Shown: in pieces, positions 702 to 35,839 of the stretch
Numbering within the stretch: the stretch's first letter is position 1
How the letters are laid out: every line of letters begins with the position of its first letter
Assembly: GCA_037447655.1 (NCBI GenBank)
Contig: JBBHKE010003504.1
Coordinates: forward strand, 124,001-188,000
Reading direction: 5' to 3'
Origin: Zygnema cylindricum
Taxonomy: Eukaryota > Streptophyta > Zygnematophyceae > Zygnematales > Zygnemataceae
DNA length: 64,000 nt
Made by a program: the position numbers and the translations under genes
The notes under the pieces: model-generated
What the model was told of the DNA's origin: nothing
Databases searched by the model: none
Seen by the model: the letters and a program-made list of their open reading frames with translations, nothing else

Positions 702-2690
702 ATGCCAACGGACTGGAACAATTTAACATTTCCAGTGGGTACCACTAGAAGCTCCAGTTATTACCGTGGACCTTACCAGGATCTGATTCCCCCCCGCTCA
801 CCTCCTGTCCTGTTCCTAGGTCATACTGGTCATACCGCTCAGTCTCTGCTAACGGGTTCACCCGACTCTAGATCTGGTATTGCCACTACATATAGATCTA
901 CATCATCTGTCTCCTCATCCTCATCCCATAGCTGGGGCGAAGATTCGGACATGGACTCCCTTGATATCCGGGATCTAATTCTACCACCTTCGCTTTTTCC
1001 TTTGAGCGGAAATATACCCACTAACTCCGATTCCTATTTTCGGGATATGGCCTCGCCCATAGCCAACGGAGGAGGTATAAATCAATTTTGTTTTTCGGGT
1101 CTGAAGGACACTATGTCCTTGTCACATTTTCTAATGCTTTTTGATATCGAGATGCAATCTCGCATTCCGGTATCAAGACCGTTATGATTTACGGGTTGCT
1201 TTCTCGTTACTTGGGCGATACCTTAGGGGATTGGCCCTATCTCTATATACACGTAAATATGCGGCAGTTTGTGCAATGAGAGAAATGGCACCCGTATATT
1301 CTGGATCGTTGGCCATAACGGGCAGTCTAAAAATTCTTTTCCAAGCTGTTGTACTTGCAGTTTATGACTTTGTAGGTAACGAAATATTTCGTGAAATACC
1401 AGAGGTCCCTCATCAGTTCGCCGTTGCAGCTCCGCAGCAATTCCAGCTCGCCCTGCAATGCTGGTTCCTCTAAGGGATCTAGTATCGTTTGTCTTCGGTT
1501 TATTACAGGAAGAATACCGAATGCAGAATCTCGACCAGGTTAGAGAACTAATGAATTTTAAACATCGCCCAGGCGAAACCGCTCCGGCATTGCGAGCACG
1601 TATGGAAACATTACGTGAAGCACAGCCAGATCTCATGTGTGACGCAGAGGTAGTTCAGAAATTTGTGGGGCAATTTCCCACCCAATCTCAACGTTTCATT
1701 CAAAGCCATTTGACTGAGGCATATGGCCTCAAATTTACTTTCAAGCAGGCTGGAGAATACGCCGTACGGTATGAAATGTAGACCAGCTGGTGGGACGCTC
1801 ACGAGCGACCTAAGTCTTCTCCAATGCAAACCCGAATCCTAATCCTAACGCACGCAACCCATGGCCTAATCCGAGACCTCTAAGGGCTCCGGCCATCGGA
1901 ACATTACCAACAAACCCTGGTGTTCGTATATGTTTTCGATGTGGTAACACTGGTCATGACGCACGTAGCTGTCCAGATAAGACCGCCACGTGTACTCATT
2001 GTAATCAAACGGGTCATTATGTACATCGATGTCACATTAAAAATATCGATTTCAGTTATCAAAATCAAATCAAAAAAGGCGGTATACCTGCTCGCTTGGC
2101 AAAATTGGTCACTCCACCCAAAGGGGTAGAGAAAGACTACCCTCTAAAAATCAGCAGGAGGGACCGAGAGAAAGCCGAGATGCAGGCTACGGTAGCGGCT
2201 ATGATGAAGGAGCAGTTTGCCGCGCTTATGGCGCGGGTCAAACCGCAATTAACCGGAATGGCCCGAACTGTGGTCCATATGCCCTCTTTTGTTGGGCGAT
2301 CACTTCAAGAGTCCACTGTTCAACAGCGGGCAGCTCAGTTTAAAGGGACTCGCGATCACAATCGCGAGTCAAAATCCATTAACACACGAATCCCATTATC
2401 ATTTGCCAAAGAACCTCGCTCACCTATTCCAGAAAACAGCCTCAAGCATCACCGCTGAGGCATTAACTATTTTAGAGAGGAGGATACAAGACACATATAA
2501 GGTCAAAGAACGTTTGTCCATCCTGTCCACAATGCTTCTCGAGTTGGATAGCAACGAAAAAACTATAGATGTAACTCCTTCAGCAGTTGCGTTACAAGCA
2601 TTACAAAACCATCGTAATGCTCTCTCTCTTCAAGCTATTACTCTTGAAAAGCGGTCTACCTTCACTCCTCACATCAGTTTTCTAGATAAC
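702..2690 (+). pseudogene. Gyp1 gag (capsid plus double CCHC nucleocapsid), frameshifted
   Basis: The start is the ATG at 702 (MPTDWNNLTF), conserved as MPTDRNNLPF in Gyp2. The N-terminus is Ser-rich, followed by a capsid-like helical region containing LAFRYQDRYDLRV and, later, METLREAQPDLM. Two zinc knuckles follow in frame 2 near 1922-2045: CFRCGNTGHDARSC and CTHCNQTGHYVHRC, both with a complete C-x2-C-x4-H-x4-C pattern. The frame breaks near 1155 (two bases short compared with Gyp2), near 1433 (one base) and near 2440. The knuckles indicate genomic RNA packaging, as in other LTR elements. Neighbouring protease follows without a clear gap. Confidence 0.75.
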
Positions 2691-3105
2691 AAATTGGGCG
2701 TTTTTACGGTTTATGGGTTTGCTCCTGCACTTCCTCTCATGGATACAGGCGCAAAGCCAATTATCCTCGGTTTTTATTTGCCATCAAAATAGGTCTTACA
2801 GTAGATAAGCTACAACCCACTACCACACATCTATTGACTTCCGCAGGTACCACAGAGCTAGTCCTCGGTATTACGATAGACCCAATCTGTTTTCAGTTTC
2901 AGAGTCAGTCAGCGACGGATTTCGCAGAAATTTATGCTCACGCCTTGGTCACCAAGTGTAGTGACTATGAATGCTTGGTCGGTCAAGACGTTATCTTCCG
3001 AGTTGGGGGGGGGGGGTTGATATGCATGATCAAACATTTTCGTACAGACCTAACAATTTTCCGGAACTCAAAATTTGCTTACCCCTTATCTCGGCCGGAC
3101 AACCC
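2691..3105 (+). pseudogene. Gyp1 retropepsin-like aspartic protease, broken
   Basis: The catalytic triad is visible as LMDTGAKPIILG near 2737-2775. A second conserved part, YECLVGQDVIFRV near 2966-3003, resembles the flap/substrate-helix end of gypsy proteases. The frame stops at 2790, resumes in another frame from 2834, and is shifted again by an uninterrupted run of 12 G at 3005-3016. After the run the continuation (MHDQTFSYRP) lies in the frame of the downstream methyltransferase, which suggests one continuous ancestral polyprotein. Gyp2 preserves the beginning (IDTGAKRIILGSDFA) up to its disruption at 13862. Confidence 0.7.
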
Positions 3106-4227
3106 ATGCCTACTACGGCCCATTCGGCGCTGATCTTGCCAGCCTATGCCGCAGTTGGCATTGGTGTAGACATCCTAGTATCACTATTAGCGGATGAAAT
3201 CTCACCAGCTTCCCCGAGTTTACCAGAATTATTTAGTACACCCGGATTTACCATTGACTCTTCAGATTTTGACCGACTATATAAATTTACTATACCAATT
3301 CGTTTATTTAGTATTCCAGATCCACCCTCCGGTGCAATAGATCCTTCTGGGTTCTTGCCCATTAAGTGGACACCGGTCAACTTACAATCTCACCAAAACG
3401 GTCTCGTTATCTTAGACCTTTTTGCGGGAATAGGGACTTCACGTCTCTCTTGCCTTCGGAACGGTCTTCTGATAAAGCATTACTATTCTGTAGATATTTA
3501 TCCTTTAGCCAGCCGCGCTCAGTTGCACCACTCTCAAGTCTTGCACGAACAGTATCCTCATCTCTTACCCCAGTCTGCGTTCCACAATATGCATTCGGCG
3601 TTGCCACAGGATATCCGGCTAATAGGGAATCATCATTTAGTGGAATTGGAACTAATTGATCTCCTCTTTAACGGATGGGAATGTCAGGGTATGTCTAGGG
3701 CCGGGAAAGGTTTAGGTATTGCACATTCACGCACTAAGCTGTACTTCGAGGTGGTTTGTCTGATCCATTTCTTCCAAAAATTGGATCGTCCTTTTGGATA
3801 CATCTTAGAGAACGTAGCAGCTAACAATGACCCCCGACCTACGGTCCTCGCAGATTATAAACGCATTGAATCGTTAATTGGACCACCACTGATCATTGAT
3901 GCCGCACGCCACGGTTCACTGGCCCACCGGGTTCGTTCCAAGTGGACTAACCTGGTGGACATGGGTCGGCTCCGAGAAGCTAACCTCGCTGTCCGTCCAC
4001 CTAACCTTTCCATTCAGGATGCACTTCTTCCATTTCATAAGGTCCAGACATGTATACAGACAGACTATCCTCCTTCATTTGGTCTTAACATCCCGGGCCA
4101 ACCACTACGTGCATTGCCTACACTAGTTGCATATCCACATTCTCACGCATACTCCAACAATGGACCGGGCATGCTTCAGAATACTCATACAGGCAGCTTA
4201 GAAGAACCTACTGCCACAGAACAATAA
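2971..4227 (+). CDS. Gyp1 DNA cytosine-5 methyltransferase domain, DNMT3-like
   Basis: An open frame of 418 codons. The methyltransferase begins near 3385. Motif I is DLFAGIG (Asp at 3415, AdoMet binding). The motif II acidic residue is in YSVDIYPLA. The motif IV loop is GWECQGMS with the nucleophilic Cys at 3682-3684. Motif VI is ENV (3808-3816). A motif VIII-like block, AHRVRSKWTNL, lies near 3922 and resembles DNMT3 AHRARYFWGNL. Motifs are in canonical linear order, unlike the rearranged plant DRM enzymes. Past the stop, motif IX/X traces continue out of frame to about 4410 (LLGRVMDP). The usual Pro before the Cys is Glu here, which may abolish activity. The reaction of the family is 5-methylcytosine formation from AdoMet. 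The domain sits between protease and RT. I infer a polyprotein domain rather than a free-standing gene. Confidence 0.85.
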   Translation: MLGRSRRYLPSWGGGVDMHDQTFSYRPNNFPELKICLPLISAGQPMPTTAHSALILPAYAAVGIGVDILVSLLADEISPASPSLPELFSTPGFTIDSSDFDRLYKFTIPIRLFSIPDPPSGAIDPSGFLPIKWTPVNLQSHQNGLVILDLFAGIGTSRLSCLRNGLLIKHYYSVDIYPLASRAQLHHSQVLHEQYPHLLPQSAFHNMHSALPQDIRLIGNHHLVELELIDLLFNGWECQGMSRAGKGLGIAHSRTKLYFEVVCLIHFFQKLDRPFGYILENVAANNDPRPTVLADYKRIESLIGPPLIIDAARHGSLAHRVRSKWTNLVDMGRLREANLAVRPPNLSIQDALLPFHKVQTCIQTDYPPSFGLNIPGQPLRALPTLVAYPHSHAYSNNGPGMLQNTHTGSLEEPTATEQ

Positions 4228-4726
4228 CATCTCTTACATTTCATCTCAGGCACCACTGCTGCTCTGAGACTCACCGAGAGGCAGCGCTGCAACCTTACTT
4301 GGTCGTGTCATGGATCCCCAATCACTGTCATTCGTCTTAGGCATGGGGTTCGGCGCTGGTCGATACGCACACAACCATCCGTCTCAATCAGTTGAGGGGG
4401 GGCATACACCATTCAAACACAGAACTTCGAAGTCCTCACCTTCTCTTCGGGGTAAAATTTTTCAGCTTGCCCTTTTTCCTTTTCCCGCTAAGTCTGACAG
4501 AGATCACACTATTTATGATTTTTTGGAACCTAGTCACATGAGTTGGTCTCTCACAGCATACACGGCCGCTAGATCTCAAGTGTTGGTACGGGCATCACCA
4601 CACTGGACAGATGTATTTCCGTCTAGAAGTTGGCATCATGCAATAAATTGTTTGCATCAGCTTCTTGTCGAGTATGAGTTGTGACACTGTTTCATAGCAG
4701 ATGAACAGCTAGCATTTGCACAAGCC
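4228..4726 (+). other. Gyp1 DNMT C-terminal remnant and spacer before RT
   Basis: Downstream of the stop at 4225-4227, pieces in different frames match the end of the Gyp3 methyltransferase: an EQ...F..GTTAA-like stretch near 4215-4262 and LLGRVMDPQSLSFVLGMG near 4297-4350, equivalent to LIGQSMDLNAITWVTKHA in Gyp3. This is the probable motif IX/X end of the domain, broken by a frameshift. The remainder up to 4726 reads open (to 4684) but I recognise nothing in it. Confidence 0.5.
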
Positions 4727-6225
4727 ATGGAAGCCATGACCGTTAACACGCTTGAAAAACCGACATGGAAATTCGGAACTAGACTAACCGAAACTGAACA
4801 TGAACTGTTAGATGAAGTCATAAACCGAAACGTAGACGCATTTGCTTTCTCCATGAAAGACTTAGGTCGACACACCACTTACAAAATGTCTATTGACTTG
4901 GAAGATGACAGACCTATATTTAAGCCCAAGCATCGTCTATCCGAAACCGAATGGGAATCTGTAGACAAACGATGCGCAGAGTTAGAAGAGGCAGGTCTGA
5001 TTTATAGGTCCGATTCCACTTTTGCGGCACCCACCGTCATGCCTCGTAAAAAAGACGCGGAGGGGAATTTTACAGAACGCCGCATGTGTGGGGACTATCG
5101 AGAACTGAATTCACATACAATCCAGGACTGACATCCAATGCCGTTGGCCGAGGACATTTTTGATCACGTGGGCGGAGCTAAACATTTTTGATCACGTGGG
5201 CGGAGCTAAATATTTTAGCATCTTAGATTTGCGACAGGGATTTAATCAAATCGAAATAGATGAAAAAGATCGACACAAAACTGCATTTTGGGGTAGTGAC
5301 GGACGTTGGGAATGGGCGGTTATGCCTTTTGGACTGAAAAATACACCGGCAGTATTCCAAAAAGTCATGGACTCAGTCTTGGGGGGATGTGAGTTTGCCC
5401 GTTGCTATATTGACGATCTAATCATCGCTTTAGCCTCTATAGAGGAACATGCAGTGCATATAAAGTGGGTGTTAAAGGAATTAAAAAAGGTAGGACTTAC
5501 ATGTCATCCTGCCAAATGTACCTTTGGGGCCGAAGGGGTTCCATACTTTGGGCATTTTTATCTCATCTGAGGGAATTTCTCCGCTAGAAGTCAAAGTGGA
5601 AGCAATTAGTAAACTACCAGCACCAACTGATTTGACTAGCCTGCGTGCATTTCTAGGGTTAGCCAATTATTACCGGCGGTTTGTTCCTAGTTTCAGCACA
5701 CTTGCATCTCCATTGAATGAACTCTTGAAGAAGTCAGTCCCGTTCACGTGAGGGACCCTCTCAGATCGGGGCGTTTCGGGGATTAAAGGACGCACTGTCT
5801 ACCGCTCCCATCCTCCGTCCCCCAAATCATAAATTACCGTTTTGTCTACAGACTGACTTTGGTAAGCCCGGTATTGCCGCTATCCTAACTCAACGCGAAC
5901 TCACAGGTGAGGAATATGTGGTGGCTTACGCCAGTAGAAGCAACAATCAAGCGGAATCAAATTACAGTAGTTACGAGGGAGAATGCCTTGCCGCAGTTTG
6001 GGGTATTGTGCATTTCCGACATTATCTCTATGGCAAGCCTTTTACCCTTCTTACTGACCATCAACCATTGCATTGGCTCATGACCAATGACAAGTTATCC
6101 GGCAAATTAGCCCGTTGGGCTCTTATTTTACAAGAATATGACATGGAAATAATCCATCGACCCGGGCTCCTCAGTTTGAATGTCGACGGCCTCTCCAGGA
6201 ACCCTTTGCCCCACTCTAATGATAA
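4727..6225 (+). pseudogene. Gyp1 reverse transcriptase and RNase H, frameshifted
   Basis: RT fingers and palm are recognisable: MCGDYRELNS near 5083, LDLRQGFNQIEI near 5225, the catalytic YIDD near 5407, and the primer-grip/thumb region LRAFLGLANYYRRF near 5641. RNase H follows with TDFGKPGIAAIL, YASRSNNQAESNYS, TDHQPLHWL and LSRNPLP, covering the usual Asp/Glu/Asp positions. A 28-bp tandem duplication at 5161-5216, a stop at 5568 and another at 5748 break the frame. The product would copy the element RNA into cDNA in cytoplasmic particles. The order RT, RNase H, integrase identifies Ty3/gypsy. Confidence 0.85.
5161..5216 (+). repeat. 28-bp tandem duplication inside Gyp1 RT
   Basis: TGATCACGTGGGCGGAGCTA begins at 5161 and again at 5189, giving a period of 28 bp. 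The second copy has one visible difference (AAACAT versus AAATAT). As 28 is not a multiple of three, the duplication alone shifts the RT frame. It looks like a small slippage or repair duplication. Confidence 0.85.
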
Positions 6226-6396: not shown

Positions 6397-7584
6397 ATGG
6401 AAGAGGAGCGAGTTCGTAAGAGAGCCCAAAATTACTTATGGATGGGGGGCTCACTTATTCGTCTTCTCTCAGATGGAAGTCACCCGCATGTCCTGCTACA
6501 AACGGAACGACTATCACTTATCAACCAAATTCATACTGACCTTGGACACTATGGCACCAAACAGACTTTGAGTTTGGTACAAGCACGATATTGGTGGTCT
6601 GGCATGCAGGCTGATGTGGCAGCTTTGTTGCAAGATTACAGCACATGTGAGCGGTTACGAACCTCAATTTCTAACAGGCTAACCACCCATCAACCCTTGC
6701 CCATTCGAGGGCTCTTCTACAGATGGTCGTCTAACTTGGCAGGTCCCTTTCCAATCTCTTGAAAAGGCAGGCAGTACATTATGATTATGATCAAAAATTT
6801 CAGCAAATGGGTGGAAGTTGTGGCCCTCTCGCAGAAAACTGCCAAACTCACCACTGCACGTTTCAAAGAGCATGTGCTTCTCCGATATGGAGCCCCCGCA
6901 TAAGTACTTACCGACGAAGGAACCGAGTTCCGCGGCGAATTTCAGGAGATGCTGGACGAGGCGTTTATCGACCACCGGCGGACAAGTCGAGATCGTCCTC
7001 AAGCAGACGGTTTGGCAAAGAGGGCGGTACAAACTTTTAAGCATGCTTTGCGTAAACATTGCTTAGAAAAACAGATTACAGTGTGGGATGAATCATTGGG
7101 ATATATTGTCATTGGTTATCGCATGTCGGTATAGGCCAGCCTGGCAAATTTCAGCCCCTATTATGTGTTGTTTGGTCGAAAACCACTACTAGGTTGGAAT
7201 GTACAAAAAGCCGCGAGCTTACCTCTACCTCTTATGTCTGATTCTCTGTTTCTCGAAGAACTAACTAACCGAGCGTTGCTTTTTGCTAGACAAATGCCCA
7301 TGGCATTCGAAAAATTGTGGATTGCTCAACATCGCGACTCCTTAGAGTTTGCAACGACTCGCAGTTGCAGCTACCGGCCACAACAAAAAGCCTTCCGGGT
7401 GGGGGATTATGATTATTTGCGACGACTAACGATTGACACACTCGACACGGATGTTTCAGCTCATATCTTGAGGATAACAAAAATCGACTCCAATGGACTA
7501 TTGAGCTTACAAGGGGCTGACAAGCGAACTTTGCGGGAGCATTCGAAAAATTGTGCCCCTTGCTATCTACCTGATCTTTCCCAC
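6397..7584 (+). pseudogene. Gyp1 integrase, frameshifted
   Basis: The zinc-binding HHCC region is HTDLGHYG...YSTCERLR near 6530-6655; the first Cys of the CxxC pair reads Tyr. The catalytic core continues in another frame with IKNFSKWVEVV near 6790, LTDEGTEF near 6907 and QADGLAKRAVQTF near 7000, so the Asp, Asp and Glu/Lys-containing blocks are only partly conserved (the usual AER reads AKR). A stop interrupts at 6901 and another at 7132. The C-terminal domain continues at 7165-7560 (LFGRKPLLGWN). The protein would insert cDNA into host DNA. A PHD finger follows directly. Confidence 0.75.
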
Positions 7585-7884
7585 TGTATGGACTCGTGGC
7601 GGATGCCGATTACCGAGGCCACAGAATGTCAGTTATGCCGCCGATCAGATGGAGAAACAACAATGATCTTCTGTGACTATTACAACCTTGGATTCCATAT
7701 GGAGTGTTTCGTTCCACCTCTGCACGCTATCCCAGCTGGACACTGGTTTTGCCACTTCTGTCGCGACCTACCGATTGTCCTTACCAACTCCCCGCAGGCT
7801 AAAGAGCTTGGTGGGGGGGAATTCCATCCTTACTTACTTGATATTGCTTTGTCTTTTATTTTCTTGGTAGGTCCATGTGTTTAG
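7585..7884 (+). pseudogene. Gyp1 C-terminal PHD finger, one zinc ligand lost
   Basis: Residues at 7627-7761 fit a PHD zinc finger: CQLC, IFCDYYN, FHMEC, then WFCHFC. The order C-x2-C, C-x2-(C), H-x2-C, C-x2-C and the hydrophobic/Trp positions match the family. The fourth ligand is Tyr (TAC) where Cys (TGC) is expected, a single transition. The domain is in the same frame as the integrase C-terminal region from 7165 and ends the polyprotein at 7882. PHD fingers usually read the histone H3 tail; in this position it could guide integration, as chromodomains do in chromoviruses. That role is inference. Confidence 0.75.
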
Positions 7885-9470
7885 AATAATTTGTTTTTCC
7901 GGGCAAATTCATTTATTGTTTCTTGCGTTATATATGCTTTGTACTCCGATTATGGTCACAAATACTGTACATATGTAATGGGCATTCATTTTCTGGTGTT
8001 TATCGGCGACCCACGCTGGATGTGATGCATGCCATTCACGGTTGAACTGTCATGCACGACAGTTGTCATGCCGTAAGACGTCAGCGGGTATTATGATTTA
8101 ATCGTGTACTAATTGATGTTTCGGTGACGTGACAGGTTCATATCCGAGAGTACAACTAAAGATACGTACGGGACAAAGGTCAGAATATACTCCCATACGG
8201 CACCACGAGAACACGTTGTAAAATCAGCGTGGAACTGGACCGCGGTACGGCATCAGACATCAGGAATTCAAGCGGCTACAAACCTGACAAGTGTCTAAAG
8301 TCATGAACCCTATGAGGTTCATGCATTATTTTTGCTTAGCTTAGGGAGGGTTTTCATCCTCGAGGTGTAGATGTAAGGCATTCCGAGGCGGCCACGTAGC
8401 GGTTGTCTCTAGAAACTGGCAGTGTTTGAACATAGAAACCTCCTTGCTCAAAGACAACTAGGAATTAGTGTAGCCGTACGGATTAGTGAAAACATAAGAT
8501 AAATGCCATTTGGCAAGATACGAACTCTTCCAAATTAAGTACGGGAATCCAACATTGGAAGGTTGTCGTTTTTTGACAAGCATTATTCTCGGGATTTGTC
8601 AAACTCTATCGTTAGGGTTTCACCTAAATATTTAGTGACAGGCTAGTTTTTGAGTTAGGGTTTTTCCTTTTTCACACCCATAGTTTCATGCTAGTAATTG
8701 TCTATGAGCTTCTCCTTCTCTTTGTACTAAGACCTTACCTAATCTACCGGCGCAAGGCATCCTGCAAGGATTCCCTCCAGAGTGTCTTTTACGTGGTGTG
8801 GTTGTTGAATTGCGTATGTGGACTTGGTGTTTCTTGTTGTCACAGCCCTGACTTTGCAGTCAAGCTCTAGTCTTGTCTTGCTTTGTGGGAATACCGGCTA
8901 TCTTGGCTCCTTTGTCCAATTAAGGAAGGGTTCTTATCTATTGGTTGGACTCCTCTAGAGAATATAAAAAGACTTCATAGCCTAGTGGCTACTGTCTCAA
9001 ATATTCTCGTACTTAATTTGCTTTGTTTTTAATTTTTTTTATTCCTCTTGTCAATTGGCTTCTTTATTTCTACTTTATTTTAATTTGTTATCTTTCTAAT
9101 TTTATTTATTCCTTGTATCAATTGTTTTCTTCCTGTCTAGTTTTTTCTGAATTTGTTGTAATTAAAAAAAAAAAACAAATATTTTTGTTATGCTTTGCTT
9201 CAATTTATTTGTTCTCTAGTTCGTTTTTGAATTGTTGAATCTGAGATTGTTGAACTGTCCAATATCGTTTTCTCTTCTTTCTTCCTACCGGATTAACTCA
9301 CTCAGAACACCTAGAAAACTTAAAAACTTAAAATTAACAAAAAAAAAAAACCTCAAATATATATCAATATATAAAGTAGGTTGCACGAATTATAACATCG
9401 AATTATCGTTGCTTTATAGACGGGTAGAGCGTGGCATAGTGCTGATACGCGTACCCTAACAGGCTACTAA
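7885..9470 (+). repeat. Gyp1/Gyp2 shared LTR-like noncoding region
   Basis: No coding sequence is supported in these 1.6 kb. The stretch contains a TATA box (8963), AT-rich and T-rich tracts (9010-9240) and ends just before the copy of the window-start sequence at 9471. A G-rich, purine-rich tract at 7809-7819 may be part of a polypurine tract, but no TG start follows it directly. I infer that most of the region is an LTR serving as 3' LTR of Gyp1 and 5' LTR of Gyp2. The exact start is not resolved because the other LTRs lie outside the window. Confidence 0.55.
8963..8969 (+). promoter_or_regulatory. TATA box of the Gyp LTR promoter
   Basis: TATAAAA in the context GAGAATATAAAAAGACTTC, about 500 bp upstream of the leader start. 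It is the best core-promoter candidate for the Gyp1/Gyp2 family; the start would be expected near 8990-9000. This rests on motif and position only. Confidence 0.5.
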
Positions 9471-9732
9471 CTACGTTGGTAATTTGAGCTGTGATCTCTT
9501 CTCGACAATACGGAATTGGAGAGAGGTTGCAGCATCACTGGGAGACCACCTTACAGATCGCTCTAGGTGAGTAGTCGGGTCCTTTTGGTTGCAGGCGCGC
9601 GATAGGTTGTTAAGCGCGGTAACCTAAAGGAGTTAGGATCCGACCGAAGGCTGTGCCTTCCTTTCCGCATAGGCATTGTGGTGGCATTTTCTTTAGATCT
9701 AACTGTGATTCGTCTTGGATAGCAACTTCTTG

Positions 9733-11480
9733 TGAAGCTCTGGGTGCTCCATTGCCCACAGAAATCGCAGATCCAAAAGAAACTAATCTAGATAGTGCCG
9801 ACTCCCAACTTGATATAAACCCAAATGACTGACCCCTTGACAGTCAAAACCCCAATACAGCTTCATCCTTGTGAAATAACACTTTCTGTGTGCTCAGTTC
9901 CACCACAGAATGCAAAGTTAGAATATGAGATTTGAACACATTCACCCACTTTGACTTTCCCTTAGAAATGCAGCCACCTTGGCAGACAAAAACTCTGACC
10001 GACTACACCGCTGTGTACCTTAGACTCCCCTGAGCCGGCAACAAAAAGAATCACTGAAAATAGTCAAGTAAATTGATAGTTATGGCTGCCCAAAGTTAGC
10101 CTTTTTATAGAAGGTGCTCTCACAAAGAGGCGACTACCTACCCAAAAAAAATTTAAGTCTTAAAACCCCTCTCTAAGCCCCCTAGTACTTAAAATTGGTC
10201 CAATCACAAGACTGTACCGTACAAGAAAGTACACGTGCCAAAGTACTTTCTATACGGTATCTTTACCGACATGTCTATAATGGTGACAATTGTCACATCC
10301 GAATTTGTCATCTTGCGTTCCGGAGATCGCGCAATCCTCCAGGATGCTGCCACGTGTCGTCCGGTGTCGGCGTGTCAAAAAACCGCCGGAATCACCATTC
10401 GGTACAATCGACTTAAACGGGAGCCGTTCGATTTTATTTCGTACTTTCAATCTCGACTGTCGAAACAAATGTCTTTGATATTTGTTTCCTGCGCTCCGTA
10501 TTATTATAGTGCGGTACCTTTCCACGTTAATTTAGTTTGGTTTCGCCGTTAAATGGATGATACCGGTATTTTACATTTTATTGCTTATTGAAACCACGTA
10601 TATGCATCGACCACCTCTAAACCTAGCGGATAAGGCGCGATATGAGAATCTGTACGGTCGTAGGTTGGATGGTCCTGGATCAATTCCAGGATTCTTCGGT
10701 TAACTTTTGGTAACGCCTAGACATACTCCCCTCTATCTTGTCTCCTTTGCTACTTAGACAGCTCCCTTCCAACCTGTCTCATTTGTAATTTAGGTAGCCA
10801 TGGCTATCTCAGTCTTCCAGTGACTATGACAAGTATGGATGACTAAGACAGACCAATACTAAGCAATTAGACCCTGTACTGATTACTCCAATGCGTTTTA
10901 ATAAATTGATATATTTGCGTATGCGTAGTCAAGCGCAACGTACAGAAAGATTACTGAATCTTTTGCGTAATAACGGAATTCAATTGAAGAATAGAATGTG
11001 GTTGGCAGAAACTCGCAACAGAACCATAGGATATAGTTGGAGAGATTTGTCATAGGACTTAGAAAATTTTGGGTAGGCAGCTGCCTCTCCCAGAGAGCAC
11101 CCTGTATAAATGGCAAACTTTGGGCAGCCATAACTATCAATTTACTTGACCATTTACAGTGATTCTTTTTGCTGCGGACTTAGGGGAGTCCACGCTACAC
11201 AGGGCTGTAGTCTGTCAGAGTTTTTGTCTGCCAGGGTGGTTGTATTTATAAGGGAAAGTCAAAGTGGGTGAATGTGTCCAAATCTCATATTCTAACTTTG
11301 CATTCTGTGGTGGAACTGAGCACACAGAAAGTGTTATTTCACAGGGGTGAATCTATATTGGAGTTTTGACTGTCAAGGGGTCAGTCATTTGGGTTTATAT
11401 CAAGTTGGAGTCGGCACTATCTAGATTTGCTTCTTTTGGATCTGCATACTCTGAGGGCCAATGGAGGTCTCAGAGTTTCA
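9733..11480. repeat. Inverted pair of copia LTRs in the Gyp2 leader
   Basis: The left arm starts TGAAGCTCTGGGTGCTCC and runs in minus LTR orientation for about 1.1 kb. The right arm ends GGAGGTCTCAGAGTTTCA in plus orientation and is the inverted copy of the outer 400 bp of the left arm. Matching blocks include the reverse complements at 9790-10030 and 11180-11430. Outer ends have the TG...CA of LTRs, but no target duplication flanks the unit (TCTTG left, AAGTG right). Compared with Gyp1, about 135 bp of host leader is missing at the site. Confidence 0.75.
10627..10690 (+). other. tRNA-like module inside a copia LTR
   Basis: AGCGGATAAGGCGCG at 10625-10639 resembles the D-arm and A box of plant tRNA-Arg, which I recall as containing TGGATAAGGCGC. 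CCTGGATCAATTCCAGG at 10674-10690 forms a perfect 5-bp stem with a 7-nt loop like a T-arm, and contains the B-box-like GGATCAATTCC. A TTTT run follows near 10705. No acceptor stem pairs, so this is not a functional tRNA gene. It runs antisense to the LTR. The related LTRs of Cop4 and Cop6 carry GGATCAAATCC at the same relative place. Confidence 0.4.
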
Positions 11481-11787
11481 AAGTGGCCTTGCATAGGTGA
11501 CATGTTTCTTCTTGGAGTGGCTTGAAGTGACTTATTGTGGTATTGCTTAGATTTGGCTGAGAACAGCCTTGTTAGGGGTGTTCACGATAAGACTAACCCC
11601 GGTGATACAGAATAGATAAAATCGTTTCGGGGGTGCCTGTTTGCGTGGGTGCCTCTTTGCGTGAATTTGAAGACTTTTTGTGTGATTTGATCGGTAGATC
11701 TGGCAGTGGGCATATGTCCACTAACCCTGAGTAGGGTCTGGCATCTAGTTGCATCCGGATAGGACGACACGACGACTGTCTGTTTAC

Positions 11788-13862
11788 ATGCCAACAGATA
11801 GGAACAATTTACCGTTTCCATCTGGTACCACTAGAAGCTCCAGTCTTTACCGTAGACCGGATCAGGATTTCATTCCCGCCCGCTCTCAATTTCAGCTTAC
11901 GGGTTCACCCGACTCTAAATCTGGTATTACCACCATGTATAGATCTACATCATCTGTCTCCTCATCCTCTTCCCATAGCTGGGGGGAAGATTTGGACATA
12001 GACTCCCTTGATATCCGGGATCTAAATCTACCACCTTCGCTTTTTCCTTTGAGCGGAAATATAGACACTTACTCCGATTCCTTATTGTGGACATGGCCTC
12101 GTCCATAAACACCAGAGGAGGTAGAAATCAGTTTTGTTTTTCGGGTCTCAAGGACACCATGTCCTTGTCACATTTCCGCATGTTTTTTGATACCGAGATG
12201 CGCGATCTCGCATTCCGATATCAAGACCGTTATGATTTACGGGTTGTTTTTTTGTTACTTGGGCGATACCTTAGAGGATCTGCCCTATCACTATATACAC
12301 GGAAATATGCGGAAATTTGTGCTATGACAAAAATGGCACCCGCATATTTAGGATCTTTAGCCAAAACAGGCAGTCCAGAAGTTCTTTTCCAAGTTGTGGT
12401 ACCCGCAGTTTATGACTCTGCAGGTAACAAAATTTCACCGGAAATACCTGAGATCCCTCATCAGTTCGCCGTTGCGGCTTGGGCAGCAATTCCAGCTCGC
12501 CTTGCAATGCTGGTTCCTCTAAGGGATCCGGTATCATTTGTCTTCAGCTTATTACAGGAAGAGTACCGAATGCACAATCTCGATCAGGTTAAAGAACTAA
12601 TGAATTTTGAACGTCGCCCAAGCGAAACGGCTCCGGCATTGCGAGCACGTATGGAAACATTACGTGAAGCACTGCCAGATCTCATGTCAGACGAAGAGGC
12701 AGTTCAAAAATTTTTGGGGCAATTTCTCACCCAATCTTGACGTTTCATTCAAAGCCATTTGATTGAGACATATGGCCTCAAATTTACCTTCGAGCATGCT
12801 GCAGAGTATGCCGTACGATATAAAATGTAGACCAGCTGGTGGGACGCTGATGAGCGACCCAAATATTCTCCTAATGCAAACCCGAATCCTAATCCTAATC
12901 CACACAACCCATGGCCTAATTAGAGACCCCCAAGGGCTCCTGCCATGGGAACTTTACCAACAACCCTTGGTGTCCGTATATGCTTTCGATGTGGTAACAG
13001 CGATCACGACGCACGCGGCTTTCCGGATAAGACTGCCACGTGTACTCATTGTAATCAAACGGGTGATTATGTACATCAATGTCACATTAAGAATCCCGAT
13101 TCTAGTTATCAAAATCAAATCAATAACGGAGATATACTTCCTCGCTCGACGAAATTGGTCACTCCACCCAAGGGGGTAGAGAAAGACAACCCTCCAAAAA
13201 TCAGTAGGAGGGACCGAGAGAAAACGGAGATGCAAGCTACCGTTGCGGCCATGATGAAGAAGCAGTTTGCCGCGCTTATGGCGCAATTCAAACCACTATT
13301 AACAAGAATGGCTCGAACTTTGGTCCAAATGCCCTCTTTCGCTGGGCAATCTCTTCGGGAGTCCACTGTTCAACAGCGGGCGGTTAATTTAAAGGGACTC
13401 CCGATCATAATCGCGAGTCAAAACCCATTAACACACGTATCCCATTATCATTTGCTAAAGATTCCCGCTCACCTATTCTAGAATCCGCCTCTAGCATCAC
13501 CGCTGAAGTTTTAACAATCCTAGAGAGGAGCATACAAGACACCTATAAAGTCAAAGAACGTTTGTCAATCATGTCCACCATGCTCCCCGAGTTGGATAGC
13601 AAAAAAAAAAATGTAGATCTTACTCCTTCAGCAGATGCGTTACAGGCATTACAAAACCATCGGCATGCTCTCTCTCTTCAAGCTATTACTCTTGAAGAGC
13701 GTTCTAGCCTCAATCCTCACATCAATTTTCTAGATAACCAATTGGGCGTGTTCACAGTTAATGGGTTTGCTCTAGCACTTTTTCTCATCGATACAGGCGC
13801 AAAGCGAATTATCCTCGGTTCAGATTTTGCAATCAAAATAGGTCTTACAAAAAATAAGCTAC
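11788..13862 (+). pseudogene. Gyp2 gag and protease start, decayed
   Basis: ATG at 11788 begins MPTDRNNLPF, collinear with Gyp1. The capsid region is open from 12087 to 12740 (DLAFRYQDRYDLRV, LGRYLRG, METLREALPDLM) and ends in a TGA at 12738 where Gyp1 has a sense codon. The knuckles near 12965-13085 are damaged: in the first, the third Cys reads Phe and the Gly-His reads Asp-His, and in the second the His reads Asp (CTHCNQTGDYVHQC). Protease begins with IDTGAKRIILGSDFA near 13790. The damage shows long inactivity. Confidence 0.75.
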
Positions 13863-14744
13863 TGTTGTTTTGAAAGCTTTAGTCCTCACTAAGCTTCATA
13901 GGTGAGGGGAGTGTTTTCTCATTACTTATAATATTTTGTGAAAGTCTGGTTCGGTATGTACCAGAATTAATGTCACAATGAACAGTGAGGGAGTTCACGG
14001 TGTGACACACTTTAAGACACGCGTTGGTAATTGAGGCACGCTACAAAGATCCGTTCGTACTATTGAGACTTACCATAAAGACCGAGGCGTCACATAAAAG
14101 TTTCATCTTGGATGAAACTTCGAAATGATTAACGGTGAAGATTTGCTGCCATCGGAAGGTGGTCATCCGGGACCACGTCTGTAATTATCTGACGTGTTTA
14201 TACATGGTGTATTGTGACGTTACTTATCCCTAGTTTGTACAGAAGCGTGTTTTGTTTGATTAGTGTCTCAATTCAGATTCATTCTGTATGACATACCTTG
14301 ACATATTCAGGTATCCTCTTTTAGATAGTAGATATTATTGATGCATGGTTGGTATGCTTCCTTTGCTTAGTTAGGGCAATAAGTGGTTACTAGCTCTTAG
14401 AAGAATAGATCTTTTAGGTATAAGAATAGGACTTAGCCATCTCAGAATTAGGAACTTGTTGTATCAAAATTATGCTGTGACATTTTTTGATATCTTTAAC
14501 TGACAATATCTCTCAGATCTCTTTGAAAATTTCTGTGTAAATTTGCACTTGTGTTCTTTTTTGTATTATCTGCATTATGTCAAATTTGTAGGCCATTTGG
14601 TTGCCTAAATTATCTTTGGCTGTGTTCCAAAGTTGTGTGTATTTTTTCTGAGCATCTGTGAGAGCTTCTTGCTTATCTGAATTCTGTGATGTCTACTCCA
14701 CCATCATCTTCATCTTCAGTTAGTGTAGCAATCACAGAACAACA
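13863..14744 (+). repeat. Cop1 5' LTR
   Basis: It starts TGTTGTTTTGAAAGC and ends CACAGAACAACA, immediately before the primer-binding site. The Gag ATG lies at 14689, so the last 56 nt of the LTR are coding. The same ATG exists in the 3' LTR. Confidence 0.9.
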
Positions 14745-15638
14745 GGTCACGGGCCCACCCTCACGGATCCCAATTTTTTATGGAAGGAAATACATCTATT
14801 GGTCTAATCTGGTTGAGTCTTATTTCACTCAAGTTAAATTGTTTGATGTAGTTGATGGCAGCCTTGCTAAAACTGAAGCATCCTATAATGGGAAAAATCA
14901 GCAAGCTCTGCATTTGTTGAAGTTAATGATCTCATGAGATCTACTTATGTCACATATCAAAATGAAAAAGGCATCAGAAATCAAGTTTTCCTTGAAACCA
15001 TCTATTTGAAAGCTAATGATCACCATGAAATTATCACGAATATTTATGATTATTGGTAGCATGGCTGAATATTGTAATGGTCTTAGGCGTTTTTTGGCAG
15101 AAAATTCGTTTTCAGGGGGGAACTTCTCCCCTTATCATCAGGCTATGATTCTTATGCGAGGTCTTCCTGAGGAATATAAAGGAGCCTCGGCAAATTTGAG
15201 AAAGTTGGATAAGTCAGCTTGGAACCTAGCAACAGCTATAGAACTAGTGTTAGAGGAGGAATCCACTGTTGCAGCTTTTAATCCAGGAAAATCATCTGTA
15301 GCTTTTAATGCACAGTATCAAGGAAACAGATCTCAGGGGTACCAAGGTTTTCAGCCTTATAACAAGTGTGTCTACTGTTATAATCAAGGACATCTGTACA
15401 AACAGTGTCCTAAGTTTCTTAAAGCCTGTGAGACAGGTATGTTCAGAAATGGATGGAGGCCAAGAGGAATCTACACGCCCCAAAAGACACCACACACACC
15501 ACCGACTCTTCCTTCTAAAACCGAAGCATTTTCAGCTGATACACCGGGATCGGAATCACTTAACAAAAGGAAGGCGCCAGATATAGTCAGTTTTTTCCAA
15601 AAACTGATGACAAAGAATTCTTTGCCTTTGCAAAACTG
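14689..15638 (+). pseudogene. Cop1 gag with CCHC knuckle, interrupted
   Basis: Starts at the LTR-located ATG (MSTPPSSSSSVSV), followed by VTGPPSRIPIFYGRKYIYW, typical of the plant copia Gag start. The frame ends at 14935, and stops and a shift follow up to about 15060. It is then open to 15638 with MAEYCNGLRRF, ILMRGLPEEYKGAS and the knuckle CVYCYNQGHLYKQC near 15370. The N-terminal part would form the particle and the knuckle would bind RNA. The protease continues in frame 3 from 15639. Confidence 0.8.
14745..14759 (+). promoter_or_regulatory. Cop1 primer-binding site for half initiator tRNA-Met
   Basis: GGTCACGGGCCCACC directly follows the LTR. It is complementary, with two mismatches, to GGUGGGCCCAUAACC of the plant initiator tRNA-Met anticodon stem-loop. 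The perfect version is seen in Cop4. It lies inside the Gag frame (codons for VTGPPS). Confidence 0.75.
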
Positions 15639-18600: not shown

Positions 18601-18805
18601 TATTGCTATTGCTTCCAATCCCAGTCATCATTTCAAAAGCAAGCATATTGAAATTAAGTTACACTTTGTGAGGGAAAAGGTGATGGCCAGAATTCTGAAA
18701 CTCATCTACTTACCTGATGAGAAAATGTTGGCAGATATGATGACAAAACCCTTACCTGCCCCAAAATTGAAATTCTATAGAGAGGGATGTGGTTTAAGTG
18801 GTTAG
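15639..18805 (+). pseudogene. Cop1 pol: protease, integrase, RT, RNase H
   Basis: Protease has GWIMDSGSSSHMC near 15660. A TAG at 15822 interrupts, then an 829-codon frame (15852-18341) carries the GAG-pre-integrase zinc region (LWHKRLGHVH), the integrase core (HSDVWGP, LRSDNGGEY, PEQNGVSERLNRT) and RT (WVFKVKLNPDNTIERYKARL, LHQMDVKTAFLHG, MYIDDLLLI). RNase H continues in another frame from about 18300 (TWSDASYND, MEAEYMA, CDNQAAIAI) and ends at the TAG at 18803, with a further TAA at 18545. Catalytic residues of integrase and RT are present. About one frameshift and two stops separate it from an intact gene. Confidence 0.88.
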
Positions 18806-18820
18806 CTGAGTCTAAAGCTT

Positions 18821-18828
18821 TAGGGGAG
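18821..18828 (+). promoter_or_regulatory. Cop1 polypurine tract
   Basis: TAGGGGAG abuts the 3' LTR start at 18829. AGGGGAG is found at the same place in Cop2, Cop4, Cop5 and Cop6, as expected for the plus-strand primer. Confidence 0.8.
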
Positions 18829-22323: not shown

Positions 22324-22535
22324 GTAAGTTACATTAAAATTTAAATCCTTGACATTTTGTTCATCTCCCTTATTTTCCTCTAATCTTTACGTAATCCTCT
22401 CCATGAATACGTGTTTTACAGTTTCCTATTGGTTTATAATGCTTCCTCATTTTCCCTTTACCCCTCACTCACTATTTCTCCCTCTCCCCCCCCCTCGCCC
22501 TTCCTCATTCTCTCCCCCTCAAGTAATTCACACCC
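22324..22535 (+). other. Transposase intron 2, left part
   Basis: It begins GTAAGTTACATT and is T/C-rich. It is interrupted at 22536 by the TG start of the Gyp3 LTR. The right part of the intron (about 35823-35839, ending TTTTTTCCTATTGTAG) lies 13.3 kb away. Exon 2 and exon 3 join in frame as P-G-V-C-Y-R. Confidence 0.7.
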
Positions 22536-26853: not shown

Positions 26854-26856
26854 GAA

Positions 26857-28470: not shown

Positions 28471-28646
28471 CAATTCCTGATTTCCAAGCGGTGGGAATGG
28501 GAATACACAAATAGATTATCGCAGGTGGCAAAACTCCGGCGGGGAGTAGATCAAGCTTTCTCAGCCTTATTATTACTGAAACAGATTCGACAACCTGGTC
28601 AAATGTTTTCCAAACCAAGCCTGGTAACGAGGACTTCAATCGACAA

Positions 28647-29645
28647 GTGGTGTCATTGACAGTTCCCGACACCGGACTTCGTATTTTATCTTTATTTTTA
28701 GGAATTAGTTCCGACTTGGAAGCAGTTTTGAAATCAGGATATCGGGTGGAGTCATATACAGCAGTGGAGATTTCGCCGGGAGCACGGGCTGTCAGCGAAC
28801 ATCACCTTCATCAGCTGCACCGCCTATATCCTCAACAGCTCCCAGTGTTTTCCATTTCCAAAGCTCACCGGAGTCTTCCCCTGAATGTGGATAACATTAT
28901 GGCACCCTATTTAGCTAATCTGGGCAGAATTGATCTGGTTGTGGCAGGATGGCCTTGTCAAGGATACTCCCTCGCACGACAAGGAAAAGGGCATCAAGAC
29001 CGCAGGAGTAGCACCTTTTACCAAATGATTACAATAATATCGTGGATTCAGCAGCTCCAGGACACACCAGTGGGGTACATCATGGAGAACGTCCACCCGG
29101 GGGATGATAAACGAATACAGGTTGCAGACAGCTAGAAACAAATAACCTGGACTTTGGGAGCTCCTTTGGTTTTTGACGCTGCTCAGATAGGATCTCGAGC
29201 ACACAGACTCCGGGCATATCGGACCAATATGATCTCGCTTCCGGTACTCCGGCAACTGTTGGATAAACAGACCCCCAACCCTCAGACTTCCGTATAACAC
29301 ATACTTGGAGAAGGGAGACTAGCCACACCTGTAACCAAACCAGATCGTCCTCCTTTCTTCCAATGCAACACACCCGGAACTCCTCGCTGAGCCCTCCTCA
29401 CGTTGGTATCTTTTCCTCACAGTCATGCCTACAGAAACGGAGCAGCTGGGATGATTTTTGACAGCAAGGACGGAATTTGGACGACACCGACAATTTAGGA
29501 ACAAGAACAAGCCATAGGATTCCATCCGGGAACGACGGCCGCACCAGGTATTTCAGACCTGCAAAGATACAGCTTAATCGGGCAGAGCATGGATTTGAAT
29601 GCCATTACCTGGGTTACAAAACACGCTCTAGCATATTCCAGTCTC
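28647..29645 (+). pseudogene. Gyp3 DNA cytosine-5 methyltransferase, nonsense-interrupted
   Basis: A single frame covers the domain. The motif I region is LSLFLGIS (expected DLFxGxG, so the Asp is not conserved). Motif IV is AGWPCQGYS with the catalytic Cys at 28956-28958. Motif VI is ENV at 29085-29093. The motif VIII-like block SRAHRLRAYRTNM near 29190 matches Gyp1 and the DNMT3 pattern. LLTLVSFPHSHAY near 29393 matches Gyp1 LPTLVAYPHSHAY. Motif IX/X is EQEQAIGFHPGTT and LIGQSMDL (29505-29600). Stops at 29133, 29295, 29388 and 29496 interrupt it, with no frameshift. Unlike Gyp1 it keeps the Pro-Cys dipeptide. It lies between protease and RT, as in Gyp1. Confidence 0.85.
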
Positions 29646-31400
29646 CATTCTCCTGATTCCCGCAGAAGTTACCTTCAAGCTCCAAAATTGTTCTCAATGC
29701 AAGCCACTTTGCAGCTTAAAGGGGGGAGACAGAGGAGAAAAATTCTACACCCAGGAATTCCTTCAGTGGGGGGGAAAAGTAGTTCAGAAAGGGACAGCTT
29801 AGCAGAAGTTGTCAGCAGTAAAGTATTATCCGAAGGAGTAGATGCGGATCCACCGGTTGGGCTAGAGTTCGATATTAATCTTTGGGGGAGATCACCGGAA
29901 GCCTGGGCCGCAGTTGAGCCGGGAAAGATGGACTGGACTCTGGGGGAGCAGCTGGACCCTGAGCAGAAAGAACAGCTAACGGAACTCTTGGCCAAAAACA
30001 ATCAGGTTTTCTCTTGGTCAGAGACCGATGTCGGAATATACAAAGGAACCCCCTTTCGTATTGACCTGATCAACGAATCCGCAACTGTTTGGCAGAAACA
30101 GTACCCTCTCAGCTTCAAGGAGAAGGAGTTTATCACCGCAAAGGTCCAAACTTTGGTAGACGCCGGGTTGGTTCAGGAAAGCATAGGAAACCATGGGTTT
30201 GCTTCCCCAACAGTTCTCCCTCCTAAGAAGGATTCATCTGGGAAAAATGTAGATTTTCGTATGTGTGGAGATTACCGCATGCTGAACACGGCCACCATTC
30301 CTGACCGTTATCCAATGCCAACCTTGGAAGATATTTTCGACTCTCTTGCCGGGGCCACCATCTTCTCCACACTGGATATGAAGAATGGATTTCACCAAAT
30401 TGCCATGGAACCAAAACACCGGGAGAGAACGACATTCTGGGCCGGATCCAGACTTTATGAGTGGCTTTATATGCCCTTCAGACTGAAGAATGCACCAGCC
30501 AAGTTCCAACGAGCCATAGACAAAGCGTTCCGAGGAATTGATTGTGCCCGGTGCTACATCGACGATGTGATAATATTCTCAAAGACCTTTGAGGAACACC
30601 TGGAGCATATCCAGATCATTCTCCGGGCCCTTCAAGCAGCGGGCTTGAAATGTCACCCGGGCAAAAGTATTTTTGGGGTGCAGAAAATTATTTACCTCGG
30701 ACATAAGGTGACTCCTGGGACAGTGGGTCCTCATATAGTTAAGGTTGCAGCCCTTGACGCTCTTCCTCCCTCGCAGGACATTTCTGCCTTGCGCACCTTT
30801 CTCGGCCTGGCCAACTACTAGCGCATGTTTATTCCTGAGTTCAGTAGTCACGCCCAGACCCTAAATAAGCTATTGCGGAAAGATCAAGAATGGCTGTGGG
30901 CCGAGGAACAGTAGATCGCTTTCCAGTTCTTGTAAGATGCCCTGAAGGAACACCCAGTGCTCCGGATGCCTGATCACCTGAGACCTTTCCTTCTTTACAG
31001 TGATTGGAGCAGGTTTGGATTGGGTGCGGTTTTGGCCCAAGTTGACGACGCCGGAGCCGAGTATGTGGTGGCTTATGCCAGCCGGAGCAACAACCGAGCT
31101 GAGGGGAATTATAACAATTACCATGGAGAGCTTTTGGCAGCTGTGTGAGCCATCCAGCATTTCATGCCCTATTTGTACGGGGTCCCTTTCACACTAATAA
31201 CCAACCACCAACCCCTGAAATGGATCATGGAGAATGACAAGTTGACTGGCAAACTCGCCAGATGGGTGCTTATCCTGCAAGAATATGATTTCAGCATCGT
31301 TCACCGGGCAGGGGAAATCCATGGGAATGCCGACAAACTTAGCCGAAACCCTGATCCTTCTACGCTGGATTCCACCGGCGCTCGGCATGACGAAGACCCG
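29646..31400 (+). pseudogene. Gyp3 reverse transcriptase and RNase H
   Basis: RT landmarks are FRMCGDYRMLNTATIPDRY near 30257, LDMKNGFHQIAM near 30373, YIDDVIIF near 30556 and LRTFLGLANY before a TAG at 30819. RNase H continues in the same frame with YSDWSRFGLGAVLAQ, YASRSNNRAEGNYN, TNHQPLKWIM and LSRNPDPS. Nonsense codons at 30819, 30912, 30933 and 31146 (TGA where Trp is expected) are the only breaks. The catalytic YIDD and most RNase H positions survive. The N-terminal spacer 29646-29990 is Lys/Arg- and Gly-rich without a recognised fold. Confidence 0.88.
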
Positions 31401-32820
31401 GAAATCAGTTTGGGACTCATTCGAGCATCCTCTGCTTTAATTTGGCTTCCTCCATCGAGGGGGGCACTGACCACCTTTGCAACAGATGTTGAGGGGCAGG
31501 CACCCATTGGATCCAGACGGAAAGACATCTGGAACGACTTTGAGGCTCTCCAATCCATCCAGCAGGGGTCCCCTCTTCCCCATTTGGCTGGAGGTCAATT
31601 GTCCCGAGTGCAGACCCGGATGGCGGCGTATGAATGGGACCGAGGTGTTCTCCTCCGGAAATGGTCAGACGGTACGAGGAAAGTGGTTCCTCCCCCATCA
31701 GATCGAGAAACTCTGATTACTAATCTCCACAAGCAATGTGGACACTGCGGGCAGAAGCGGACCACTTCCCTAGTTACAGGCTCGTATTCGTGGCATGGGT
31801 TGCGGGCCCAAGTCAACCGAATCGTACAGACTTGCTCTTCCTGCGATCGAGTTAAGGCCTCCTTTGACAAAAAAGGCGGGACTGAGCTGCATTCTCTCCC
31901 TATCCGGGGGATGTTTTATCGGTGGTCTTTGGATCTTTTAGGACCTCTTCCGACTAGCAGACGTGGGAATCGTTTCGTCCTTGTCATGATTAAACATTTC
32001 TCAAAATGGATAGAGCTTGTGGTTTTGCCCCAAAAGGAGTCCAAGTCCATCGCCGATGCTTTCTTGCAGAGGATCTTGTCACAATTTGGAGCGCCCGCAG
32101 AGGTCCTGACAGACCAGGGATCGGAATTCGCCGGAGAATTTACAAATCTTTTGGAGAAATGCCTCATCGACCATCGACTTACCAGTCACGACCACCCTCA
32201 AGCCGACGGTTTGGCCGAAAGGTGCGTACAAACAGTGAAGCGGTCACTACGGAAATATGCCGTGGAAGAGGACTTAGGAGAATGGGACAAATGGGTACCT
32301 TGGATTGCCATGGGATACAGATTCAGCAGACAGGCTTTCCTCCACTCCTATAGTCCTTACTTCATCTTATTCGGACGGCATCCCATTCTGCCCGGGGCTG
32401 CCTCGGCCTAAGCTGTGGTCCTCTCGGAAATGGATCAAAAAGGGACTGTCGAAAAATTGATCGCCGATCCTGCCAAGATCTTCCACCGAGAGATGCCTCT
32501 CGCCATGGGGAATTTACAGGCGGCACAACACTGGGATCAATTGTGGTATTCCCAGCGCCGGAACGGGGATTATGTGCCTAGACAGCGACGGATTATGCCG
32601 GGAGATTTTGTATATCGAATGCAACAGAAAAAGGACACGCTTGACATTTCTGCCGGGCGGGTGATTTTGAAAGTGGTGGAAGTCTCAAACAAGGGAGTTC
32701 TGACTTTGGAGGGGAAAGATGGTCGAAGAATTAAAGAGAATCAGATCAATGTGGCTCCTTGCCATCTCCGAGGATTGGAAGACGAACCCACTTTCCACAT
32801 GACTTACTTTGCCGATCCCC
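31401..32820 (+). pseudogene. Gyp3 integrase
   Basis: The zinc domain HKQCGHCG...CSSCDRVK near 31730-31857 has all ligands. The catalytic core has SLDLLGPLP, LTDQGSEF and GLAERCVQT, so Asp, Asp and Glu are all present. The C-terminal part LFGRHPILPG is followed by TAA at 32409 and continues in frame with FHREMPLAMGNLQAA and a basic, beta-rich tail that corresponds to Gyp1. The TAA is the only disruption seen. A PHD finger follows. Confidence 0.85.
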
Positions 32821-35822: not shown

Positions 35823-35839
35823 ATTTTTTCCTATTGTAG

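Follow-up and report, generated by a model that had tools for sequence, protein, structure and literature searches.

A DNMT3-like methyltransferase domain in a decayed Ty3/gypsy retrotransposon of Zygnema cylindricum and in a clade of PHD-bearing relatives

Hosts use DNA methyltransferases (DNMTs) to silence transposons. A gypsy element that itself carries a DNMT is already known, KnitGypsy-Dnmt3 of Klebsormidium nitens (de Mendoza et al. 2018, PMC5890265); in the available text of that paper, a figure legend gives the repeat order A-coding-B-A-B, and the domain showed no activity in yeast, a result its authors regarded as inconclusive. The same text describes SymbioDIRS-Dnmt3 and SymbioLINE-Dnmt of Symbiodinium, in line with the statement, in an earlier note on the DNA analysed here, that retrotransposon-borne DNMTs occur in dinoflagellates and charophytes. 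In a literature search with most subscription journals and bioRxiv preprints outside its scope, no gypsy element with both a DNMT and a PHD finger was found by titles and the starts of abstracts, the name KnitGypsy was found in PMC5890265 only, and nothing was found for the combination of chlorophyte, Gypsy, DNMT3 and retrotransposon.

The window, a stretch of 64 000 nucleotides from Zygnema cylindricum (C2623:124001-188000 of a 352.8-Mb assembly), contains an element of this type, Gyp1 (Table 1). The earlier note had described C5-methyltransferase motifs in canonical order, with a resemblance to DNMT3, in one open frame between the protease and the reverse transcriptase (RT) of a gypsy polyprotein. 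The open frame at 2971-4227 was confirmed in the ORF list of the window and its translation matched PF00145 above the curated cut-off (39.8 bits against 22). Motif sites were located at 3415-3435 (DLFAGIG), 3673-3696 (GWECQGMS), 3802-3816 (ILENV) and 3922-3942 (AHRVRSK), as the note had them ordered, and DNMT3A/3B was the best relative among solved families, both by profile and by predicted fold. The order I-IV-VI-VIII-X, without DRM-type rearrangement, was found in an undamaged copy (C1344) and in the relatives P0002 and P0004. The single frame stood in part: motifs I to VIII do lie in 2971-4227, between protease and RT, but the protease, motif X and RT are in other frames, and a single polyprotein rests on the C1344 copy. 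On its sequence, the domain can be firmly assigned as a DNMT3-like C5-methyltransferase domain. The identity of Gyp1 is firm, and the interpretation in the earlier note is supported; the mechanism we infer.

The motif IV loop reads GWECQ instead of the usual G-x-PCQ, and thus lacks the Pro-Cys pair of PF00145 enzymes. Pro-Cys at this place is near-invariant among C5-cytosine methyltransferases. Among the 14 copies of the Gyp1 family in which the loop was found (Gyp1 included), 13 have WEC and one (C2293) has WVC; no match to the loop pattern was detected in C1974 or C1864.

Gyp1 in the window is a fossil copy of a Ty3/gypsy element, as its DNMT, RT, integrase and PHD pieces are frame-broken, interrupted by stops or damaged at a zinc-binding Cys (Tyr replaces the fourth zinc Cys of the PHD finger). 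Its gag is split across several frames (537-2458). Placement of pieces of the undamaged copy on the window assigned 2971-3360 to the protease end and a linker (the latter at 3007-3360), with the catalytic domain starting near 3361. The DNMT frame ends at a stop (4225-4227), and the DNMT end plus the next stretch of the undamaged relative map to 4292-4681, in a different frame. Comparison with the C1344 copy places repeat A1 upstream of the window start. After repeat A2, where B2 would be expected, the leader of a second, tandem copy begins instead, and similarity to A plus leader continues as far as 9056. Positions 9470-9733 repeat 1-261; this pair was considered as the LTRs of Gyp1 and dropped, since the C1344 comparison points to leader sequence. 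The tandem copy is partial, consisting of the leader from 9004 and then 11481-13862 (85.7 % identical to 402-2813), and is interrupted by a copia element at 13863-19718.

Table 1. Features of the two DNMT-bearing gypsy elements, in window coordinates
Feature	Position	Strand	Evidence
Gyp1 Gag zinc-knuckle frame	1814..2458	+	PF00098 E 5.4e-5
Gyp1 aspartic protease region, two frames (3 and 2)	2535..2983	+	tblastn with undamaged-copy protease piece, 92-93 % identity
Gyp1 DNMT domain with motifs I to VIII plus target-recognition part, frame 1	3361..4224	+	PF00145 E 4.9e-10; DNMT3A/3B
Gyp1 motif IV loop GWECQGMS, catalytic Cys present, Glu replaces usual Pro	3673..3696	+	
Gyp1 DNMT motif X LLGRVMDPQSLSFVLGMGF, frame 2 (ORF 4268-4684)	4295..4351	+	joined to DNMT in undamaged copy
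Gyp1 reverse transcriptase, frames 2 and 3, one stop	4847..5558	+	RVT_1 E 1.8e-26 on 5109-5567; undamaged-copy match
Gyp1 RNase H	5753..6166	+	RT_RNaseH E 8.4e-36; undamaged-copy match
Gyp1 integrase (H2C2 and rve), three stops	6436..7155	+	H2C2 E 5.3e-13; 87.5 % to undamaged copy
Gyp1 PHD finger, integrase C-terminus	7606..7791	+	PF00628 E 1.8e-8; undamaged-copy match
Gyp1 terminal repeat B1	7817..8061	+	87 % to repeat B of C1344 copy
Gyp1 terminal repeat A2	8064..9003	+	87 % to repeat A of C1344 copy
Gyp2, second DNMT-bearing gypsy, different sublineage	25813-32777 (about 25.8-32.8 kb)	+	
Gyp2 DNMT N-terminal part to first in-frame stop, GWPCQGYS	28515..29132	+	PF00145 E 1.8e-9
Gyp2 DNMT C-terminal part, same frame	29133..29870	+	tblastn with P0003, 28623-29861, frame +3
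Gyp2 RT, RNase H, integrase and integrase C-terminal region	30015..32777	+	

Nine stops interrupt the frame of the second element, Gyp2, between 28515 and 32411, those in the C-terminal part of its DNMT being at 29133, 29295, 29388 and 29496; 29499-29870 alone had no Pfam match. Unlike Gyp1, it has Pro-Cys in motif IV (GWPCQ), and its RT is nearest to P0031 (SH-aLRT 100). Putative frame-shifted remnants of its PHD finger were seen by eye near 32800-32990. Three 1-kb direct repeats (22535-23545, 33383-34393 and 34844-35826, with 35761-36237 listed alongside) were considered as Gyp2 LTRs and set aside; a DDE_1 transposase frame (E 3.1e-10) overlaps one end of one of them. The window also contains a gypsy element with a chromodomain on the minus strand (50514-54009; PF00385 E 4.7e-12) and a copia element at 42426-48875, the LTRs of which are 99.1 % identical, indicating a recent insertion.

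A DNMT search of the 352.8-Mb genome gave 101 matches, comprising the window's own place and at least 99 others (one in two pieces); this is a lower bound because scoring covered 100 of the 2120 first-look candidates. The matched stretch was free of stops in 16 of 101 (counting the window's own match and a partial piece). In C1344, a single 2395-aa frame reads zf-CCHC-PR-DNMT-RT-RH-H2C2-rve-PHD (the matches to zf-CCHC, E 0.0086, and to the protease, E 0.012, fall below curated cut-offs), which confirms that a gypsy polyprotein holds the DNMT, with RT in the same frame. The DNMT was present in all 15 copies compared, all of which had been picked through the DNMT search, and the PHD finger in 11; of the four without it, three are at loci that stop short of this part, and C1864 lacked RT to PHD in the stretch examined.

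Pairwise dN/dS (NG86) had a median of 0.195 for the DNMT (63 pairs, range 0.045–0.649), with medians of 0.167 for RT (45 pairs), 0.189 for integrase (28 pairs), 0.069 for RNase H (28 pairs) and 0.075 for the integrase C-terminus plus PHD (38 pairs); the stretches before and after the DNMT had medians of 0.293 (60 pairs) and 0.283 (36 pairs). These values are rough because pairs share branches, broken copies were included, and pairs that were too short, too close or saturated were dropped. The substitution pattern indicates that the DNMT of the Gyp1 family is under purifying selection. The earlier note had allowed for a chance insertion unique to this locus; this did not hold, given the at least 99 further places, the relatives in Closterium and Klebsormidium and the purifying selection. 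Selection, the many copies and the one deep clade described below show that the DNMT is a functional component of the element that selection maintains.

CpG was not depleted in copies of the Gyp1 family (o/e 0.83–0.92), and self-methylation as read from CpG loss was therefore unsupported for this family. Elsewhere in the window, CpG o/e was 0.67 for Gyp2, only 0.36 for the copia element that interrupts the tandem Gyp1 copy, 0.62 and 0.66 for the other two copia elements and 1.05 for the chromodomain gypsy; four N-free 5-kb stretches of the genome ranged from 0.62 to 1.05, a fifth being nearly half N. Differences between repeat copies showed no clear pattern in C context. PF00016 (RuBisCO large subunit) had no match in the assembly, which says nothing about host photosynthesis because the plastid genome may be missing.

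The terminal repeats of the C1344 copy are A1 (85514-86444), B1 (94737-94978), A2 (94981-95911) and B2 (95912-96154), with 100 % identity between A1 and A2 over 931 bp and 99.6 % between B1 and B2. The order A-coding-B-A-B was found in C1344, C449 and C232. Repeat A begins TGTCATGC and repeat B finishes GCACGACA; GC separates B1 from A2, giving a palindrome, GACAGCTGTC (C1344:94970-94990), that resembles a joint between two cDNA ends. A G-rich tract lies upstream of B1. Exact 4-bp target duplications flank two of four copies (TTGG in C1344, CCAT in C232), and no exact duplication was found in the flanks of C449 and C605. The C1344 frame has the order PR-RT-RH-IN with a DDE integrase (the protease again below its cut-off); a tyrosine recombinase profile is absent from the 2395 aa and rve is present. 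The DDE integrase would insert the element in the form of a TG...CA molecule, duplicating 4 bp of the target, despite the DIRS-like repeat order.

Relatives were searched for in several ways. The DNMT alone gave 13 matches, including proteins of Closterium NIES-53/54 and Klebsormidium, and the DNMT profile gave 14, among which P0025 and P0026 look by eye like ordinary bacterial methylases. In one frame with the DNMT, P0016 has a Pfam protease before it, and P0013 and P0024 have a Pfam RT after it. P0002, a DNMT of this retrotransposon type, is filed under a Candidatus Obscuribacterales MAG; its contig is perhaps eukaryotic and put into the wrong bin. In IMG/VR, 10 stretches matched a pattern and none was confirmed as a relative. 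A query running from RT to PHD in the undamaged frame, with the DNMT excluded, gave 569 matches among candidates of 0.55-1.75 times the query length, of which 120 were listed. Although absent from the query, the DNMT was detected with our own profile in 107 of these 120. Our own PHD profile detected the finger in 98 of the 120, and both domains were present in 94 and neither in nine, PHD counts being biased upward because the query contained this domain. Named hosts with the DNMT by our profile were Klebsormidium, Closterium, Pleodorina, Tetrabaena (36 to 101 bits, catalytic motifs unaligned), Pseudoscourfieldia (only 27 bits) and Tetraselmis, which we take to be the meaning of a code in one partial record; named rows without it were Cordylochernes and Haematococcus.

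A phylogenetic tree was reconstructed by a quick method from RT and integrase columns, leaving out DNMT and PHD, for 124 rows (the 120 listed relatives, P0013 and three from the Z. cylindricum genome). One clade (SH-aLRT 99) contained 114 rows, in which the Gyp1 copies were sister to P0027 and Gyp2 to P0031. The DNMT was present in 107 of the 110 listed rows of this clade, or 111 of 114 with the four added rows, which had been chosen as DNMT carriers; P0029, P0065 and P0086 lacked it. DNMT presence required four changes on the tree and PHD presence ten. In 28 rows (24 listed) the DNMT precedes RT (first order), and in 83 it lies between RT and integrase (second order; one, P0028, uncertain), with a single switch of position on the tree. 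Many of the 107 DNMT calls rest on our own profile, because PF00145 was weak or absent in the four second-order relatives scanned (P0061 and P0075 scored 19.1 and 16.2 bits, under the cut-off of 22, and neither P0068 nor P0059 matched); four first-order relatives exceeded the cut-off.

In a DNMT tree of 109 rows (11 short or weak rows omitted), a single branch (SH-aLRT 88) set the second-order type apart from all other rows; P0008, which has no known context, fell within that type. Second-order domains nested inside the first-order type when the tree was rooted on two bacterial rows; DNMT3A was the only eukaryotic outgroup, and long branches meet there. The split between Glu and Pro types was weakly supported in the first DNMT tree (74/80). 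The nesting and the single positional switch fit one capture of the DNMT followed by one move within the polyprotein; with these outgroups, there may instead have been two captures from related hosts.

Motif IV could be aligned in 98 of the 107 DNMT rows and was EC in 59, PC in 23, SC in seven, DC in two, AC in two and another pair in five, the catalytic Cys being present in 93 of 98. The EN of motif VI was retained in 93 of 107. One group (P0059 of Pleodorina, P0067 and P0069) has GWCWHD or SWCWHD at motif IV and VCE in place of ENV, and the whole domain still scores 170-184 bits. We infer a loss of catalysis in this group; it is not firm because a Cys sits one place earlier than the catalytic one. 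The C4HC3 pattern fitted 80 of the 98 PHD fingers; among the rest, several finish with a His variant and one is truncated. At the place that is presumably that of the H3K4me3-cage Trp, 79 of these 80 have Gly and one has Ala. PHD matches in the PDB include BAZ2A, KDM5B, PHF21A and AIRE, readers of unmodified H3K4, all of which are outranked by PHF12 and ORC1B; plant ORC1 is an H3K4me3 reader.

The best explanation, which we put at a probability of roughly 0.55, is that a selected DNMT marks the cDNA or the landing site, the PHD finger guides integration and the resulting copies are tolerated. The released DNMT would be carried by the particle alongside RT and integrase, placing 5-methylcytosine on new cDNA or on the landing site, so that either the element's DNA or its target may be marked; the PHD finger would steer integration to chromatin with unmodified H3K4, and new copies would be tolerated as already silent, self-like DNA. 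Against this stand the two of four copies without an exact target duplication, PHF12 and ORC1B as top PHD matches, and several observations that favour a mainly non-catalytic, DNMT3L-like domain, which would bind nucleic acid or host DNMTs and chromatin, hold cDNA or recruit host methylation while its active site was free to drift. The Pro before the catalytic Cys is gone in Gyp1 and most aligned relatives (Glu in 59 of 98), motifs IV and VI are degenerate in P0059, P0067 and P0069 although the domain as a whole persists, CpG is not depleted in the Gyp1 family, and the K. nitens domain was inactive in yeast, inconclusively so for its authors (available text of PMC5890265). Yet drift would leave fewer than the 93 of 98 rows with the Cys and the 93 of 107 with EN; PC-type domains are also still present (23 of 98), and in the Pleodorina group the displaced Cys makes the loss of catalysis itself a probable rather than a firm reading. 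A mainly non-catalytic domain is possible but rather unlikely.

Methylation of RNA, for example the genomic RNA in the particle, instead of DNA appears improbable: the closest relatives are DNMT3 and not DNMT2, even though the DNMT adjoins RT in the particle protein and Glu-Cys is unlike that of every DNA C5-methyltransferase known to us. RNA is also raised by de Mendoza et al. for the LINE type (PMC5890265, available text). The broken window copy could suggest a passenger without a role, picked up a single time by Gyp1 as a fragment of a host DNMT3, but purifying selection, at least 99 further genome places and presence across the polyprotein clade leave this with hardly any probability, and for the family as a whole it is already refuted. 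Returning to a selected DNMT that marks DNA, a broader joint reading is proposed tentatively and with some doubt. An ancient gypsy clade of streptophytes and chlorophytes would have captured a DNMT3-type domain once, moved it once within the polyprotein and combined it with a PHD finger that reads H3K4me0, so rebuilding the animal DNMT3 reader-writer pair (ADD plus catalytic domain) in an integration machine; its active site would be mostly Glu-Cys, and the volvocine branch would hold a dead, DNMT3L-like cofactor.

A clade that carries a DNMT together with a histone-reading finger lets one ask whether a transposon gains by marking itself, selection on the DNMT being seen where it was tested, in the Z. 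cylindricum family. With Glu-Cys in the active site, a near-invariant catalytic motif would take on a new form, and the degenerate-motif DNMTs provide a natural comparison with DNMT3L. If there was one capture, the 2018 picture from K. nitens shifts from acquisition in a single lineage to an old, widely spread element clade.

Compared with known systems, KnitGypsy-Dnmt3 shares with Gyp1 the gypsy domain set, a DNMT3-like domain in the Pol frame and purifying selection on the DNMT, and shares the A-coding-B-A-B repeats with the Gyp1 family (available text of PMC5890265). The K. nitens protein P0070 belongs to the same RT-IN clade and has its DNMT before RT, but with Pro-Cys where Gyp1 has Glu-Cys. 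Gyp1 has a PHD finger at its integrase end, whereas the word PHD is absent from the main text of PMC5890265, a contrast that is affected by P0070 being a partial record ending in the integrase C-terminal region. The Gyp1 clade also has more hosts than KnitGypsy-Dnmt3, chlorophytes included, and a second domain order. SymbioDIRS-Dnmt3 has the repeat order of the Gyp1 family, but the Symbiodinium types, as described in the available text of PMC5890265, have a tyrosine recombinase or a LINE endonuclease, in contrast to the DDE integrase of Gyp1 and the 4-bp target duplications in two of four copies. Chromoviruses and brown-algal chromodomain/Tudor gypsy elements resemble Gyp1 in having a chromatin reader at the integrase C-terminus (available text of PMC12477816), whereas the reader in Gyp1 is a PHD finger and occurs together with a DNMT. 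The catalytic domain of human DNMT3A/3B agrees with that of Gyp1 in motif order and predicted fold, but Gyp1 has only about 24 % identity over the aligned part, Glu-Cys for Pro-Cys and a position within a Pol polyprotein. Beyond the gypsy-borne DNMT known since 2018, Gyp1 and its relatives thus add the pairing with PHD, the breadth of hosts, two domain orders, the Glu-Cys site and versions with degenerate motifs.
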